Source: Deltaproteobacteria bacterium
GTDB taxonomy: Bacteria; Myxococcota; Myxococcia; Myxococcales; SZAS-1
Assembly (NCBI GenBank): GCA_018266075.1
Contig: JAFEBB010000003.1
Span: 1-64,000, forward strand
Reading direction: 5' to 3'
DNA length: 64,000 nucleotides
The notes below the pieces were generated by a model, which worked only from the letters and a program-made list of their open reading frames with translations, did not search any database and was not told where the DNA came from. Made by a program: the position numbers and the translations under genes. Shown piece by piece: positions 7,687-35,656 of the stretch (position 1 is the stretch's first letter; every line of letters starts with the position of its first letter).

Positions 7687-9681
7687 GTGAACGAAACGGT
7701 TAACATCGACGAGGCCTTGCAGAAGCACTTCGGCTTCCCTGCGTTCCGCGAGGGTCAGCGGCAGGTGATCTCGGCGGTGCTCGCGGGCACGCCCACGCTG
7801 GGCATCATGCCCACCGGCCAGGGGAAGAGCCTCTGCTTCCAGCTGCCGGCGCTGCTCTTGCCGGGGCTGACGCTGGTGGTGTCGCCGCTGGTGGCGCTGA
7901 TGAAGGACCAGGTTGATGCGCTCACCGAGCGCGGCATGCCGGCCACGTTCATCAACTCGTCGATCTCGGAGACCGAGCGGCGCGAGCGGCTGGCGAAGGC
8001 GGTGCGGGGCGAGGTGAAGCTGCTCTATGTCGCGCCCGAGCGGTTCCGGGTGACGCAGTTCGTGGATGCGCTCTCCAAGATTCAGCTGGCGCTGCTCGCC
8101 GTCGACGAGGCGCACTGCATCAGCCAGTGGGGCCACGACTTCCGGCCCGACTACACGCGGCTGGGCGAGATTCGCGCGATCCTCAAGCCGCCGCGCACGG
8201 TGGCGCTCACGGCCACGGCCACACCGGAAGTGCGCGCCGACATCGTCCGCGCGCTCGGGCTCAGCGATCCGCTCGTCTTCGTGGCCGGCTTCGATCGGCC
8301 GAACCTGTATCTGGACGTGCGTCAGCTCCGGACCTGGCGCCAGAAGCTCACCGCCACGCTCGTGCTCGCGCGCGACGGCCAGTCGGGCATCGTCTACGCG
8401 GCCACGCGCAAGAAGGCCGAGCGGCTCGCGGTGGACCTGGGTGCGCGCGGCGTGACCAGCGAGGCGTACCACGCGGGGCTCGCGCCGGAAGCGCGGTCGG
8501 CGGTGCAGCAGCGCTTCATGTCCGGGAAGACGAACGTGGTCGTGGCGACGAACGCCTTCGGCATGGGCATCGACAAGCCCGACATCCGCTTCGTGGTGCA
8601 CGCGCAGGTGCCGCGCGCGGTGGAGGCCTATTACCAGGAGGTCGGCCGCGCCGGTCGCGATGGCGCGCCTGCGACCGCGCTGCTGCTCTTCAACCACGCC
8701 GACGTCTATCTGCAAGAGCGGCTGCTGGCGTCGAGCTATCCCACGCCCTCGCTGGTGCGCGACGTCTGGGAGCGCCTTCGCTTCGAGCCGCTGGTGCGCA
8801 CGCCCATCGCCGCGCTCGCCTCGCAGATTGGCGCGGAAGAACAACAGGTCCACGCGGCGGTGAAGCTCCTCGAGCGCGCGGGCCACCTGGATCGCGGGGC
8901 GCGCGGCGATGGACCGGCGGAGCTGGCCATCGTCGATCGGCTGCAACCCAAGCTCGGTCACCTCGGGCTGGTGCTCGATTGTCTGCGGCAGAAGCTGCCC
9001 GGCGACGGTGCGTCAGCGCTGTACCTGGAAGAGCTCGTCGGAGCCGTGGGCTTGCCCATCCTCGCCGTGCGTCGGGCGCTGGCGCAGCTCGCGCGCGAGG
9101 GCCTCATCGCCTACAAGCCGCCGTTCGCGGGTCGCGCGCTCGCCATTCGCGATCTCGGTCTGCCGAGCGGCGAGCTGGGCATCGACTTCGACGCGCTGGC
9201 AAGACGGGAAGAGCAGTCGAAGCGGATGCTCAAGCGCATGGCGAGCTACGCGTACGCGAAGTCGTGTCGGCGCGGCTTCATCCTGCGCTACTTCGGCGAG
9301 CGCGCCCCCCAGCGCTGCGGCAATTGTGATCTCTGCGCGCCGCGAAGGCCGAAGCGAGGCGCCCAGTCGAGCTCCAGCGCCGAGAGCAGCTGGTCGCTCC
9401 TGGACCAGGGCTTCTCGCTCGACGAGGTGGCGCGGCTGCGCGGCATCAGCGCTGAGACCGCGCTCAGCCACCTGGCCACGGCCGCGCGCATGGGGCGTCC
9501 GATTGCGCTGGATCGCTTCGTTCCGCCGGCGCGGCAGGCGCGGATCCGGGCGGTGGCGGCGCTGCACCCGCACGCGCGGCTCGGCGAGCTGCGGCGCGCG
9601 CTGGGCGATGTGAGCTACGGCGAGCTGCGACTGACGCTGGCCGTGGGCCGCGACGCGGCTCAGCCCATCGATTCCAGGTAG
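7687..9681 (+). CDS. recQ: RecQ family ATP-dependent DNA helicase
   Basis: This is a 664-residue superfamily 2 helicase that unwinds DNA 3'-5' in repair and recombination. It has Walker A PTGQGKS (residues 42-48), the DEAH box (140-143) with the RecQ-specific CISQWGHDFRPDY, and the C-terminal helicase motif VATNAFGMGIDKPDIRFV...QEVGRAGRDG. The four-Cys zinc site (C-x-RGF...C-GNC-DLC, about 526-549) is intact. A short winged-helix-like tail (FSLDEVARLRGISAETALSHL) follows; no HRDC domain is evident. The GTG start has GGAGGG just upstream. The last 22 nt overlap the convergent GAF gene. Confidence 0.93.
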   Translation: MNETVNIDEALQKHFGFPAFREGQRQVISAVLAGTPTLGIMPTGQGKSLCFQLPALLLPGLTLVVSPLVALMKDQVDALTERGMPATFINSSISETERRERLAKAVRGEVKLLYVAPERFRVTQFVDALSKIQLALLAVDEAHCISQWGHDFRPDYTRLGEIRAILKPPRTVALTATATPEVRADIVRALGLSDPLVFVAGFDRPNLYLDVRQLRTWRQKLTATLVLARDGQSGIVYAATRKKAERLAVDLGARGVTSEAYHAGLAPEARSAVQQRFMSGKTNVVVATNAFGMGIDKPDIRFVVHAQVPRAVEAYYQEVGRAGRDGAPATALLLFNHADVYLQERLLASSYPTPSLVRDVWERLRFEPLVRTPIAALASQIGAEEQQVHAAVKLLERAGHLDRGARGDGPAELAIVDRLQPKLGHLGLVLDCLRQKLPGDGASALYLEELVGAVGLPILAVRRALAQLAREGLIAYKPPFAGRALAIRDLGLPSGELGIDFDALARREEQSKRMLKRMASYAYAKSCRRGFILRYFGERAPQRCGNCDLCAPRRPKRGAQSSSSAESSWSLLDQGFSLDEVARLRGISAETALSHLATAARMGRPIALDRFVPPARQARIRAVAALHPHARLGELRRALGDVSYGELRLTLAVGRDAAQPIDSR

Positions 9682-30085: not shown

Positions 30086-33000
30086 CTACTCTTCATCCAC
30101 CCACACGTCGTCCACGCGGAGCTGCGGCGGCGTGAGGCGCAAGCGCATGCCGTGCACGTTGGGCCGCGTGGCCGCGAAGGTGCGGTCGTGGAAGAGCGGG
30201 ATGAGCGGCGCGTCCTCGCGGAGGATCCGCTCCGCCTGGCGATACAGCTCCGTGCGCCGCGTGGGATCGATGGTGCCGCGCGCTTCGGAGGTCACCGCGT
30301 CGAACTTCTCGTTCTTGTAGCCGAGGGCAAAGTAGCTCTGCGCCCGCGAGTTGCAGAGGAAGTAGAGGAAGTTGTCGGCGTCGGGGTAGTCGGCCACCCA
30401 GCCACCGTAGGTCATGCCCACGCCGCCCGCTTCGGTGCGCCGGTTGAACTCCTCGTTGGGCATGGTCTCGCAGCGCACGGTGATGCCCACCTCGGCGAAG
30501 CGTCGGAAGAACGCCTGCGAGAGGACGCCGTTGCGGCTCGAGCTGTAGCAGGTGAGCTCCAGCCCGCGCGCGACGCCCGCCTCGGCCAGGAGCCGCCGCG
30601 CCTTCTCCACGTCCACGCGGAAGAGCGGCGCCGCATCGTCGTAGCTGGGCAGGCCCGGCGGCGTGAGCGAGCGCGCCGGCTTGCCGTCGGGGAAGGCCTC
30701 GCGCACGCCCGCGTCGACGTCGACCAGCAGCTGGATCGCGCGCCGCACGCGCACGTCGTCGAAGGGCTTCACCTTGCAGTGCAGCGCCAGGAAGTTCGTC
30801 GACAGCGACGTCGCCGACATCACGCTGATGCGCTGTCCCGCCGCCTTCACCAGCTCGCGGTTGGTGAGGTTCGAGAGGACGTCCACCTCGCCGCGGGAGA
30901 GCGCGTCCATGGCGGCCTGCTGGTCGGCGAAGAAGGTCACCTCCACGCGGTCCACCATCGGTCGATCCGGCGCGTGGTACTCGCCGTACCGCTCCACCAC
31001 CATGCGCCGGCCCTTCTCCAGCTGCGTGCAGCGGAACGGGCCCGTGCCCACCGGCAGCCCGCGCGACGGCGCCCGGCCCACGAACGTGAACGGCAGCGTG
31101 AGCAGGTTCAGGAAGAACGCCTTGGGCTCGAGGAGCTCGATCTCCAGCTCCAGCTCGCCCAGCACGCGCATGCCCGAGACGCTGTCGGCCTGGCCGCGGC
31201 GATAGGCCTCGGCGCCGACCACGTCTTCGAAGATCCAGCTCGAGGGGCTCTTGCGGCGCGGCGAGAGCGAGCGCTCGAAGGCGCTCTTCACCTCGGCGGC
31301 GGTGAGCGGCGTGCCGTCGTGGAAGCGCACGCCGCGGCGCAAGCGGAAGCGATAGCGGCGCCCGTTCGGATCCGAGTCCCAGCTCTCGGCGAGATCGGGC
31401 ATCACCGCGGCGCCGTCACCTGCGCGAAGGAGCGTGGAGTAGAACGTCGCGGCCACGTCGACCGCGTGCACATCGACGAGGTTCAGCGGATCGAACCCGT
31501 TGCTCGACTCCACCAGATCCGGCGCGGGCACGGCCACGCGCAGCGTCCCGCCGCGGCGCGCGGTGGGCAGCCGGAAGTGGAAGACCTCCTCTTCGAGGCC
31601 CTCCGCTTCGCGATAGAGGTGATCCACCGTGCGCGAGAGATCGTCGGCGACCTGGATGACGCGGTTGGCGTCGTCGCGGACCTCGGCCACGGCGGCGGCG
31701 ATGTCGGCGTCGCCGCGATCGAGCACCTCGTGCGCCGCGCCGATCTCGCCGCGCACCACCTCGAGGCGATTCACCGCGACGGCCAAATTCGCGGCGCTCT
31801 CGGCCTGACCGGCGGCCTGCGCGCGCGCGTCGTTGGCGAGCCGGGCCATCTCTTTGGTCTGCTCCGAGAGCGAGCGGCCGATGCGCGCCTGCTCGAACGC
31901 CGCGCGCGACACGTCTTCCACGCGCGCCGCCACGCGCTTGCTGGCGTCGGCCACGCGGCCGCCCTCGCTCTGCAAGCGGCCGGTCTCGCCGACGGTCTCT
32001 TCCACCGCCAGAAAGGTGCGCTCCACGGTGCCGCGGATCTCGCCGAGGGCGTCCATGGCGCGGTCGCCGAGGAGCACGCCGTGCGCGGCGCGCTCGCGGC
32101 CTTCGCCCACCAGTTCGACGGCGCGTCCCACTTCGTTTCGAACGGCGTTCACCAACTGGGCGATCTCGCGGGTGCTGCGCGCGGTGCGCTCGGCCAGCGT
32201 GCGAATGCTGTCGGCGACGACCGCAAATGGCCGTCCGTGCTCGCCCGCCTGCGCCGCGATGATCGACGCGTTCAGCGAGAGCAGGTTCGTCTGGTCGGCG
32301 ATCTCTTCGATGACGTCGATGATCCGGCCGATCTCGTCGGAGCGTTGCCCGAGTCGTTCGACGAGCTCGGCCACGCGCTGCACCGAGTCCTGCAGCACGT
32401 ACATGCCCTGCACGCTGTCTTTGACCAGCGCCTGGCCGCGCTCGGCCGTGCTCGACACCTCGCGCGCGAGATCGCCCGTCTGCTGCGCGCGCCGGCGCAC
32501 GCCCTCGATGCCCTGGGCCACCGCGCCCACGAAGAGGTCCGCCTCCACCGCGAACTTGGCCAGCTCGCCGCCCGAGTCGGCGATGGCGCCCATGCGCTCG
32601 GTCATCTCCTCCACCGCGCGGCTCTGCTTGGTGACGAAGTCGTTGAGCGTGGCCAGCACGTTGCCCACGCTCTCCATGCGCGAGGTCATCTCCTGCAGGC
32701 TCCCGGTCGCCTCGCTGGAGAAGCTCTGAAGCTGGGCCACGCGGCCGCGCACGCGCTCCAGCTCGCTGCCCATGCCGCCCACGGCCGTCAGCGTGCGGTC
32801 CACGGCCGAGCCCTGGCGCTTGGCGAACTCGAGCAGGCGGCGCGAGCGCTCGGCCGTCTCGCTGCTGGTCCCTCGCAGGTTTCGCGTCACCTGCTGCACC
32901 TGGGCCACCGCGCGTCGGAGCGCCAGCACCAGCGCGCGCAGATCGCCGCCGCGGTCCTCGACGGCCTGCGGCGTGCGCGTCAGGTCGCCCTGGGCAATCT

Positions 33001-33217
33001 GGGCCACCACCAGCGCGCGGCCCGAGCGCTCGATCCGCGCGGCGCGCACGAAGTAGAGGTAGCCCACCAGCCAGAACCAGAGCGCCGAGACCACCAGGGC
33101 GATGCCGGCCCGCACCGCGAACGGCTGGCCCGACAGCGACTGGGCGATGAGCAGCGCCGCCAACCCAGGCAGCGCGCCAGCCAGGCTGTAGGCGACGAGG
33201 AAGCGGCGCAGGCCCAT
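30086..33217 (-). CDS. Chemoreceptor (MCP) fused to an ABC-type oligopeptide-binding (SBP_bac_5) domain
   Basis: This is a 1043-residue protein. Two membrane helices (about 8-28 and 37-57) are joined by a loop of only about 10 residues; a HAMP-like stretch leads into a long MCP signalling domain (about 100-540). Its tip reads [40 protein letters not shown], close to consensus and expected to bind CheA/CheW. Residues about 557-1030 form a complete family 5 solute-binding domain (start [10 protein letters not shown]; signature [15 protein letters not shown]). By the membrane topology this domain should be cytoplasmic, whereas such proteins are normally periplasmic. No che genes are adjacent. 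Confidence 0.87.
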
Positions 33218-33353: not shown

Positions 33354-34223
33354 ATGCGTATGACTTGGGTGCTGGTGCTCGGGCTGACGCTCGCGCCGCC
33401 GACCTTCGCCTGGGCCAAGAGCGTGGACGCTGAAGTGAGCCGGCTGGCCAAGCAGAGCCAGCAGCAGTACCAGGCCGGCGACTACACCGCCGCGGCCGAG
33501 ACGCTCCTCAAGGCCTACGAGCTCAAGCCCGTCTCGCGGCTGCTCTTCAACATCGCCAAGACGTACGAGAAGGCCGACAACGGCGACCAGGCGATGCGCT
33601 TCTACCAGCGCTACATCGACGCCTCCGACGCCGAGCCGGAGCTGGTGCGCCAGTCGTCGCGGGCCATCGAGCGGCTGAGGATGCTCGCCGACCAGAAGAA
33701 GGCCGCCGAGAAGGCCGAGGCCGACAAGAAGGCCGCCGAGCAGAAAGCCGAAGAGGACAAGCTCGCCGCGCAGAAGGCCGACCTCGAGAAGCAGCAGGCC
33801 CAGGCCGCCAAGGACGAGGCCGATCGCCAGGCGCGCGCCAACGAGCTCGCCGCCGCGCCGCCGCCCAAGCGCTCGCGCGCGGTGCCCTACACGCTGATTG
33901 GCGTGGGTGGAGCCGCGGTGGCTGGCGGCGCCGTGCTCGGCATCACCGCCAGCGGGCTCGCGTCCGACGAGAAGGCGTCGACGGATCCTTTCGCCAAGCC
34001 GGACCTGCGCAGCCAGGCCAAGAGCCGCGCGCTGGTGGCCGACATCGCCTACGGCGTGGGCATCGCCGCGCTGGCCACGGGCGTGATCCTCATTGCCACC
34101 GAGCCCAAGGCGCCCGCACCGGCCGACGGAACCATCTCGTCGACGTCGACCACGCACAGCTTCACGCCGCAGCTCCTGCTCTTCGATCACGGCGCGGGCG
34201 TGGCCCTGGGAGGTTCGCTGTGA
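33354..34223 (+). CDS. Secreted/membrane TPR protein with Lys/Glu-rich coiled coil
   Basis: This is a 289-residue protein with a signal peptide (WVLVLGLTLAPPTFAWAK) and TPR-like helices (about 25-110; QYQAGDYTAAAETLLKAYELKPVSRLLFNIAKTY). A charged coiled coil (AAEKAEADKKAAEQKAEEDK region, about 120-170) and two C-terminal hydrophobic segments (YTLIGVGGAAVAGGAVLGIT; VADIAYGVGIAALATGVILIA) follow. It is a common myxobacterial architecture of unknown function. ATG 33354 has GAGG 7 nt upstream. It is coupled by GTGA to the next gene. Confidence 0.75.
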   Translation: MRMTWVLVLGLTLAPPTFAWAKSVDAEVSRLAKQSQQQYQAGDYTAAAETLLKAYELKPVSRLLFNIAKTYEKADNGDQAMRFYQRYIDASDAEPELVRQSSRAIERLRMLADQKKAAEKAEADKKAAEQKAEEDKLAAQKADLEKQQAQAAKDEADRQARANELAAAPPPKRSRAVPYTLIGVGGAAVAGGAVLGITASGLASDEKASTDPFAKPDLRSQAKSRALVADIAYGVGIAALATGVILIATEPKAPAPADGTISSTSTTHSFTPQLLLFDHGAGVALGGSL

Positions 34224-35656
34224 AGCGCACGCTCCTCTTCGCCGCGACGCTGGGCGTGCTGGGCGCGGCCTCCGCGTGCAGCCTGGTCATCGGCTCGTTG
34301 GATGAGTGCAAGGTCGATGGCGATTGCGCCAAGAAGGGCCCGGGCCTCGTCTGCCAGGACTCGCTCTGCGTGGCCAGCTCGGCCCCGGTCGACGCCGGCG
34401 TGGACGCCGGCCCCGCCGTCGCCCGCGATCCGCTCTGCCAGGACGTCTACGGCAGCACCGACGGCGGCAACGTCCTCCGCCTGGGCGCGGTGGTGCCCAA
34501 GAGCACCTCCACCGGCGCGGTCGATATCCGCGGCGTGTACCGCGGCGACGCCATCGCCATGGCCGTTCAGGAGCTCAACCGCAAGTCGGCGCTGCCGGGC
34601 ACCTCGGTGGTCATCCGCGTGTGCGACGACACCGGCGACAGCACCAAGGCCGCCACCGAAGCGGGCGAGCTCCTCGACGAGGGCGCGGTGGCGCTGGTCA
34701 CCACCGGCTCCTCGCAGACCATCGCCATCGCCAACGCGGTCGTCTCGCGCGGCGCGACGCTGATGAGCATCTCCGCCACCTCGACGCAGATCCAATCGGC
34801 CGGCGTGTTACCTGATGGCGGCGCCAAGCGCGTCTGGAGCACGGCCACGTCGGACTCGTCGCAGGCCAAGGTGCTCGCGGGGATGATGGAGGACGCCGGC
34901 TACTCGCGGCCCGCCTGCGTGCACGCCGACGACGTGGCCTTCAACGGGCTCTACGCCTCGCTGACCCAGGACCTGCCCGCGTTCGCCGACGGCGGCGCGA
35001 ACCTGCCCCAGTTCCTCTACGAGTCGGGCACGAGCCCCACTTCAGCGATTCAGGGCGCGCAGCAGAGCTCGCCCGACGCGGTGGTGCTCATCTCCACCGT
35101 GGGCGACACCGCGGCGCTGCTCGGCGCCTGGGAGGGCGCGGATCCGGTCTGGCTCTTCACCGACAACGCGCGCAGCACCAGCGTCTACGGCTTCGACGGC
35201 GGCCTGGCGCGGCTCGCGGGCTCCAAGGGCACCGGCCCGAGCACCCCCTCGGCGTCGAACCTCGAGTACTCGAGCTTCCACGCGCTCTTCGTGACCGACT
35301 TCCCCGACGCGGGCGACCCGGCCACGGTGAGCTACGTGCCCAACGCCTACGACGCCGTGCTCCTGCTCGCCGCGGGCTCGCTCTGGGCGCAGGGCCACGG
35401 CACCATCGACGGCGCCGGCGTGGCGCAAGGCCTCACCCAGCTCTCGAACACCAGCGTGGCGGCCACGCCGCTCAGCGCGGACCAGTTCACCACGCTGGCG
35501 GCGTCGTTCTCGCAGGGCCAGCAGGTGAACGTGAAGGGCGCGAGCGGCGCGCTCGACTTCGACAACGCGCACGGCGTTGCGCCCGGCCCCATCGACATCT
35601 GGGTGATCGCGCCGGACGGCGGCATCGTCACCGTGGCCAACGTGGCCAACCCGTGA
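34220..35656 (+). CDS. Periplasmic-binding-protein-like lipoprotein (LivJ/Peripla_BP_6 type)
   Basis: This is a 478-residue lipoprotein (lipobox ASAC) with a short Cys-containing segment (DECKVDGDCAKKGPGLVCQDSLC), then a type I periplasmic binding fold (about 85-470: LRLGAVVPKSTSTGAVDIRG ... AIAMAVQELN ... VTTGSSQTIAIANAVVSRGATLMSISATST). It resembles branched-chain amino-acid binding proteins, but no permease or ATPase gene is nearby, so it is more likely a sensor or structural ligand-binding protein. The GTG start overlaps the previous stop; the stop overlaps the esterase start (35653-35656). Confidence 0.8.
   Translation: MKRTLLFAATLGVLGAASACSLVIGSLDECKVDGDCAKKGPGLVCQDSLCVASSAPVDAGVDAGPAVARDPLCQDVYGSTDGGNVLRLGAVVPKSTSTGAVDIRGVYRGDAIAMAVQELNRKSALPGTSVVIRVCDDTGDSTKAATEAGELLDEGAVALVTTGSSQTIAIANAVVSRGATLMSISATSTQIQSAGVLPDGGAKRVWSTATSDSSQAKVLAGMMEDAGYSRPACVHADDVAFNGLYASLTQDLPAFADGGANLPQFLYESGTSPTSAIQGAQQSSPDAVVLISTVGDTAALLGAWEGADPVWLFTDNARSTSVYGFDGGLARLAGSKGTGPSTPSASNLEYSSFHALFVTDFPDAGDPATVSYVPNAYDAVLLLAAGSLWAQGHGTIDGAGVAQGLTQLSNTSVAATPLSADQFTTLAASFSQGQQVNVKGASGALDFDNAHGVAPGPIDIWVIAPDGGIVTVANVANP

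Follow-up and report, generated by a model that had tools for sequence, protein, structure and literature searches.

The current analysis concerns a chemoreceptor gene on the reverse strand of a stretch of 64,000 nucleotides of myxobacterial DNA, referred to here as the window. The gene encodes a protein in which an MCP signalling domain is followed by a family 5 solute-binding domain, and these two are the sole significant domains recognised by Pfam in the 1043 residues (Table 1).

Table 1. Features of the receptor gene and of its encoded protein, with positions in the window
Feature	Position	Strand	Remarks
Receptor gene (McpK orthologue), whole	30086..33217	(-)	ATG start, 1043 aa + stop
Membrane helix 1, residues 6-24	33146..33202	(-)	Predicted; Kyte-Doolittle 2.04 over 19 residues
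Membrane helix 2, residues 39-57	33047..33103	(-)	Predicted by hydropathy
MCP signalling domain (PF00015, MCPsignal), residues 249-409	31991..32473	(-)	Pfam E 5.9e-35
Hairpin tip [23 protein letters not shown], residues 306-328	32234..32302	(-)	Best-conserved stretch of the family
Coiled coil/binding domain junction, residues 546-557	31547..31582	(-)	F548, P551, G556, G557 conserved, gap-free
Family 5 solute-binding domain, residues 558-1043	30089..31546	(-)	Pfam and PDB matches
Pfam core SBP_bac_5 (PF00496), residues 605-959	30341-31405	(-)	E 1e-74
Asp943 codon	30389..30391	(-)	Aligned with mature Asp408 of E. coli DppA

Two membrane helices are predicted close to the N-terminus on the basis of hydropathy (Kyte-Doolittle over 19 residues, with a cut-off of 1.6 for a membrane segment). 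The loop between them is of about 14 residues and has a single Arg/Lys, versus 2 and 4 on the outer flanks of the helices, and past residue 70 the hydropathy of the window receptor reaches a maximum of 1.29 only. No HAMP domain has been matched by Pfam in this protein. A conserved 'LAxGDLT' motif that follows helix 2 (residues 66-82, about 32972-33022 on the reverse strand of the window) is found also in orthologues devoid of the helices and is perhaps a HAMP remnant. The hairpin tip is near-consensus and represents a tip subclass in which IIAAQAGE replaces IEAARAGE. The source genome has 6 MCP loci, among which one other, on contig 29, was seen with the IIAAQAGE tip.

The C-terminal half of the receptor comprises a complete family 5 binding fold. 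Dipeptide- and peptide-binding proteins of the PDB match residues ~571-1024, which correspond to the entire fold, in phmmer searches, and the family profile spans the complete fold with E-values down to 6.9e-129. The family 5 signature [15 protein letters not shown] lies at residues ~622-636, and the nearest solved structures are those of peptide, heme, dipeptide and glutathione binders. A single-sequence AlphaFold model of residues 546-1043 had a mean pLDDT of 35 and was discarded as unusable. A preliminary description of this DNA had proposed two close N-terminal helices with a tiny loop, a full MCP signalling domain with a near-consensus tip and a complete family 5 domain behind it, and all these features have been recovered in the current analysis.

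The genes neighbouring the receptor in the window code for a LysR regulator, a TPR protein, a lipoprotein-like Peripla_BP_6 protein and an esterase, and no permease or ATPase gene adjoins the receptor. The Peripla_BP_6/ANF_receptor protein (34220-35653, forward strand, E 2.9e-21) is encoded behind the TPR protein gene, and the few genes scanned around it include no permease. In the sampled relatives, neither a che gene nor a transporter has been recognised beside the receptor. The gene neighbourhood differs between the source genome and its relatives, and gives no clue to the ligand or the pathway. Many genomes of one myxobacterial family (f7) have in the flanks of the receptor (L048-L067), mostly ~1-2.2 kb upstream, a gene that resembles by eye an arginine N-succinyltransferase, often with an opposite-strand gene in between; it is absent beside the window receptor. 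The source genome has 11 CheW-domain matches, none of them beside the receptor gene. Three successive CheW-domain matches lie on contig 25 of this genome (G000; 71068-72527), which carries no MCP match. A frame of 696 residues among these matches is perhaps a CheA, and the cluster could be a partner of orphan receptors like that of the window.

Proteins with the same fusion have been identified in a large number of genomes. A search with the whole protein in 195 genomes of the phylum revealed matches below 1e-60 in 92, representing 26 of the 90 genera and belonging nearly all to the family f7. In 85 of these 92 genomes (as counted from the match table) the match runs for at least ~985 residues within a single open frame, the remaining 7 being contig-end or split copies. 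The Myxococcota orthologues share 39-50% identity with the window receptor over ~1000 residues, and those in the set are 1036-1054 aa long with the same layout. Both Pfam domains are significant in all 22 Myxococcota members of one alignment (A2) and in all 18 scanned members that are mostly from Acidobacteriota, including six without membrane helices. One orthologue (L048, in genome G117) is split near 9640-9652 into two overlapping frames exactly at the junction of coil and binding domain, which may be a sequencing error, a pseudogene or a true fission. Four genomes of a single genus (G061, G062, G064 and G065) encode a second paralogous fused receptor, both matches being partial in G064.

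Beyond the Myxococcota, 31 of 396 genomes from the phylum of an Acidobacteriota MAG have a match, which extends across more than 900 residues in 29 of them with 25-34% identity, and the phylum of a 'Deltaproteobacteria' MAG has one genome with a full-length match (36%). No fusion was detected in 398 genomes of the Pseudomonas phylum (Pseudomonadota), and 296 Nitrospirota-type genomes gave separate binding proteins only, both being weak negatives with only two candidates scored per genome. Matches in G574 and in the Nitrospirota, which had been considered as possible fusions, were rejected as they correspond to separate, exported binding proteins. A contig scan with the single protein gave no match, and that with the alignment returned mostly ordinary MCP tips together with one true orthologue (L068). 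The junction 'EVFxFxLPxPRxGGTLR' aligns gap-free across the family. In a quick tree with few outgroups the fused binding domains cluster together, separately from 9 periplasmic relatives (SH-aLRT 99), a grouping that is compatible with one old fusion event. The fusion is a real receptor class kept in many myxobacteria and Acidobacteriota. The preliminary description had envisaged such a class with conserved spacing, and the same fusion with its gap-free junction is indeed present in many genomes of three phyla.

The architecture is not a new kind, as it has already been tabulated for Myxococcus xanthus. McpK (MXAN_6456) is listed as an orphan receptor of 1048 aa with an MCP domain at 246-463 and a 'Bacterial extracellular solute-binding proteins domain' (Moine et al. 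2014, PMC3945109). Going by this published description, McpK is similar to the window receptor in the order of domains, the length, the lack of HAMP and the orphan nature of the gene. It differs in that three TMHMM helices are listed for it, their positions not being given (PMC3945109), as against two by hydropathy here; a third helix of the McpK type is not reproduced by hydropathy. The identical layout, length and lineage indicate that McpK is almost certainly the M. xanthus orthologue of the window gene. The same publication assigns McpK to class 44H along with DifA and suggests signalling to the Dif (exopolysaccharide) pathway; DifA is described there as a two-helix receptor with almost no periplasmic room and with HAMP from residue 33 (PMC3945109). 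In the parts of that paper drawn on here, neither a ligand of McpK nor the side of the membrane on which its binding domain lies is discussed. The receptor mutants named there as free of defects are those of McpG, McpI, McpJ, McpL and Mcp4, and McpK is not among them. No functional study of McpK in Myxococcus, or of MXAN_6456, was found in literature searches. The earlier statement that no well-described system of this architecture is known is not supported as it stands and has to be limited, because McpK is tabulated with both the domains (PMC3945109) and an SgrR-type cytosolic SBP_bac_5 sensor is known (PMC13060122).

No hydrophobic segment is present between the hairpin tip and the binding domain in any of 43 Myxococcota orthologues, and only one of these (L017) has an over-threshold segment past residue 70, which lies inside its MCP hairpin. 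The MCP hairpin must be cytosolic in order to meet CheA and CheW, and family 5 binding domains are normally periplasmic. In six orthologues from Acidobacteriota (L174, L175, L179, L180, L192 and L199) the first 130 residues are devoid of hydrophobic segments, the highest value being 1.24, and a signal peptide is also lacking. For five of them the reading frame stays open for no more than ~20 residues ahead of the chosen start, and in the sixth, L179, the whole of the longer frame is also without a hydrophobic segment. Since neither a helix nor a signal peptide is available, the C-terminal half of these six would not be exportable by the usual routes. Weak hydrophobic stretches seen near residues 650-720 in some members, the helix-free ones included, are part of the binding fold. 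The binding domain of the window receptor is internal and is not preceded by a signal peptide; the separate binding proteins that came up alongside the orthologues have N-terminal export signals, mostly of the lipoprotein type. The binding domain is predicted to be cytosolic, as the preliminary description had inferred, and this location is well supported by the homology to helix-free orthologues and by the lack of an intervening helix. The third helix that was considered there as a means of placing the domain outside was not found in the 43 orthologues, and the unusual topology offered as an alternative is not needed.

Mean conservation is highest in the hairpin tip (0.92) and lowest in the first 60 residues (0.59), with values of 0.67-0.74 for the binding domain. 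The dN/dS ratio of the binding domain is 0.06-0.33 in 8 close pairs, indicating purifying selection, and its FHDG/FHNG and W..D..D.D.F motifs vary hardly at all across two phyla. Asp943 aligns with residue 436 of the E. coli DppA precursor, equivalent to Asp408 of the mature protein, which holds the amino group of the ligand. An Asp occupies this position in 47 of 48 orthologues and an Asn in the other one. In DppA an Arg holds the carboxylate of the peptide. An Arg of this type is common in Myxococcota and is not conserved elsewhere, and a dipeptide is therefore not secured as the ligand across the family. As Asp943 is conserved and the carboxylate Arg is not, the ligand is predicted, with moderate confidence, to carry a free amino group, a short peptide being the simplest candidate.

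We consider it fairly probable that the window protein is a membrane-anchored orphan receptor of the McpK family, in which the binding domain at the C-terminus senses a cytosolic ligand that is probably peptide-like. The N-terminal helix pair would be an anchor in the inner membrane, with no sensor on the periplasmic side, and the signalling hairpin and the family 5 domain would both be cytosolic. Because most orthologues keep the anchor without a real periplasmic domain, the input is most likely to be the cytosolic binding domain. This domain would be joined almost linker-free to the base of the returning coil. Its opening or closing on a small ligand from the cytosol, the likeliest being a short peptide or other compound with a free amino group, would alter the hairpin and with it the activity of a CheA kinase. 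As the junction has no gaps, closure of the domain may act directly on the base of the coil. We infer in this manner the binding of a ligand, its identity, the mechanical coupling and the direction of signalling. The Dif pathway is the putative partner in M. xanthus, a link that is a published prediction (PMC3945109). More tentatively, the family could be a widespread class of receptors through which the pool of peptides in the cytosol, whether imported or recycled, controls a chemosensory kinase. The peptides would be read by a binding protein that has lost its export signal and is welded to the end of the coil, some members in Acidobacteriota being fully soluble.

It is unlikely that ligand binding has been lost and that the binding domain now has a structural role or mediates protein interactions, such as docking to another cytosolic protein. 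Such a role would agree with the lack of conservation of one of the two charged anchors of DppA, with the other roles known for SBP folds (PMC9602780) and with the failure to recognise transporter or che genes as neighbours, but the retention of the complete fold, the purifying selection on it and the near-invariance of Asp943 and of the two motifs over two phyla argue against it. Even less likely is the sensing of the primary signal, such as the membrane state or a partner protein, by the helices or the coil, with the binding domain only tuning the response. The two helices and the short loop are kept in most orthologues and DifA likewise has two helices with almost no periplasmic room (PMC3945109). 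However, six orthologues without helices still keep the binding domain, and the N-terminal 60 residues, where the helices reside, show the lowest conservation in the protein.

Export of the binding domain to the periplasm through an extra helix or an unusual topology is very improbable, even though it would conform to the usual location of family 5 domains. The TMHMM count of 3 for McpK (PMC3945109) is also in its favour, but helix-free orthologues exist, the region from tip to binding domain has no hydrophobic segment in the 43 orthologues, the only over-threshold segment past residue 70 being that within the L017 hairpin, and the weak stretches near residue 700 sit inside the binding fold. 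That the fusion is a sequencing or assembly artefact has a negligible probability and is refuted by independent genomes of three phyla, which have full-length copies of the same fusion with the same gap-free junction. A stop or frameshift at residues 540-560, which the preliminary description had raised, is excluded by full-length orthologues in one frame in many genomes. The reading of a cytosolic ligand by the C-terminal domain of an anchored receptor is the preferred explanation.

The current analysis adds to the tabulated architecture its breadth over three phyla, the helix-free members that fix the topology and a conserved residue of the pocket. Chemoreceptors usually sense signals outside the cell, either by themselves or with the help of a separate periplasmic binding protein that docks to them. 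The window receptor has such a binding protein built in at its opposite end, where it would lie inside the cell. If the domain binds peptides, the receptor could link the internal nutrient state of the predatory, proteolytic myxobacteria to motility, exopolysaccharide or development. The helix-free version in Acidobacteriota would be a soluble protein suited to ligand screening and structure work.

The binding proteins DppA, OppA, GsiB and HbpA share with the receptor the same complete fold and the Asp at the amino-group site. They carry a signal peptide for export and work with transporters or, as stand-alone proteins, with Tap-type receptors, unlike the internal domain of the window receptor. 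In the SgrR/DsvR regulators a family 5 domain is known to act as a sensor in the cytosol and is likewise fused to an output module (PMC13060122); their output is an N-terminal DNA-binding HTH in contrast to the chemoreceptor hairpin. A survey has reported Pfam domains of binding proteins also in cytosolic proteins and as sensor domains (PMC9602780). An MCP encoded in a KSB3 MAG (L096) has two N-terminal helices and a C-terminal Peripla_BP_4 domain (E 3.4e-27), and is similar to the window receptor in its tip class ([10 protein letters not shown]) and in having a binding-protein fold after the coil. Its fold is RbsB/LacI-like and the two binding domains are not homologous, making it a parallel case. 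Since the KSB3 protein carries Peripla_BP_4 at the same place, a binding-protein fold has probably been placed behind the coil more than once.
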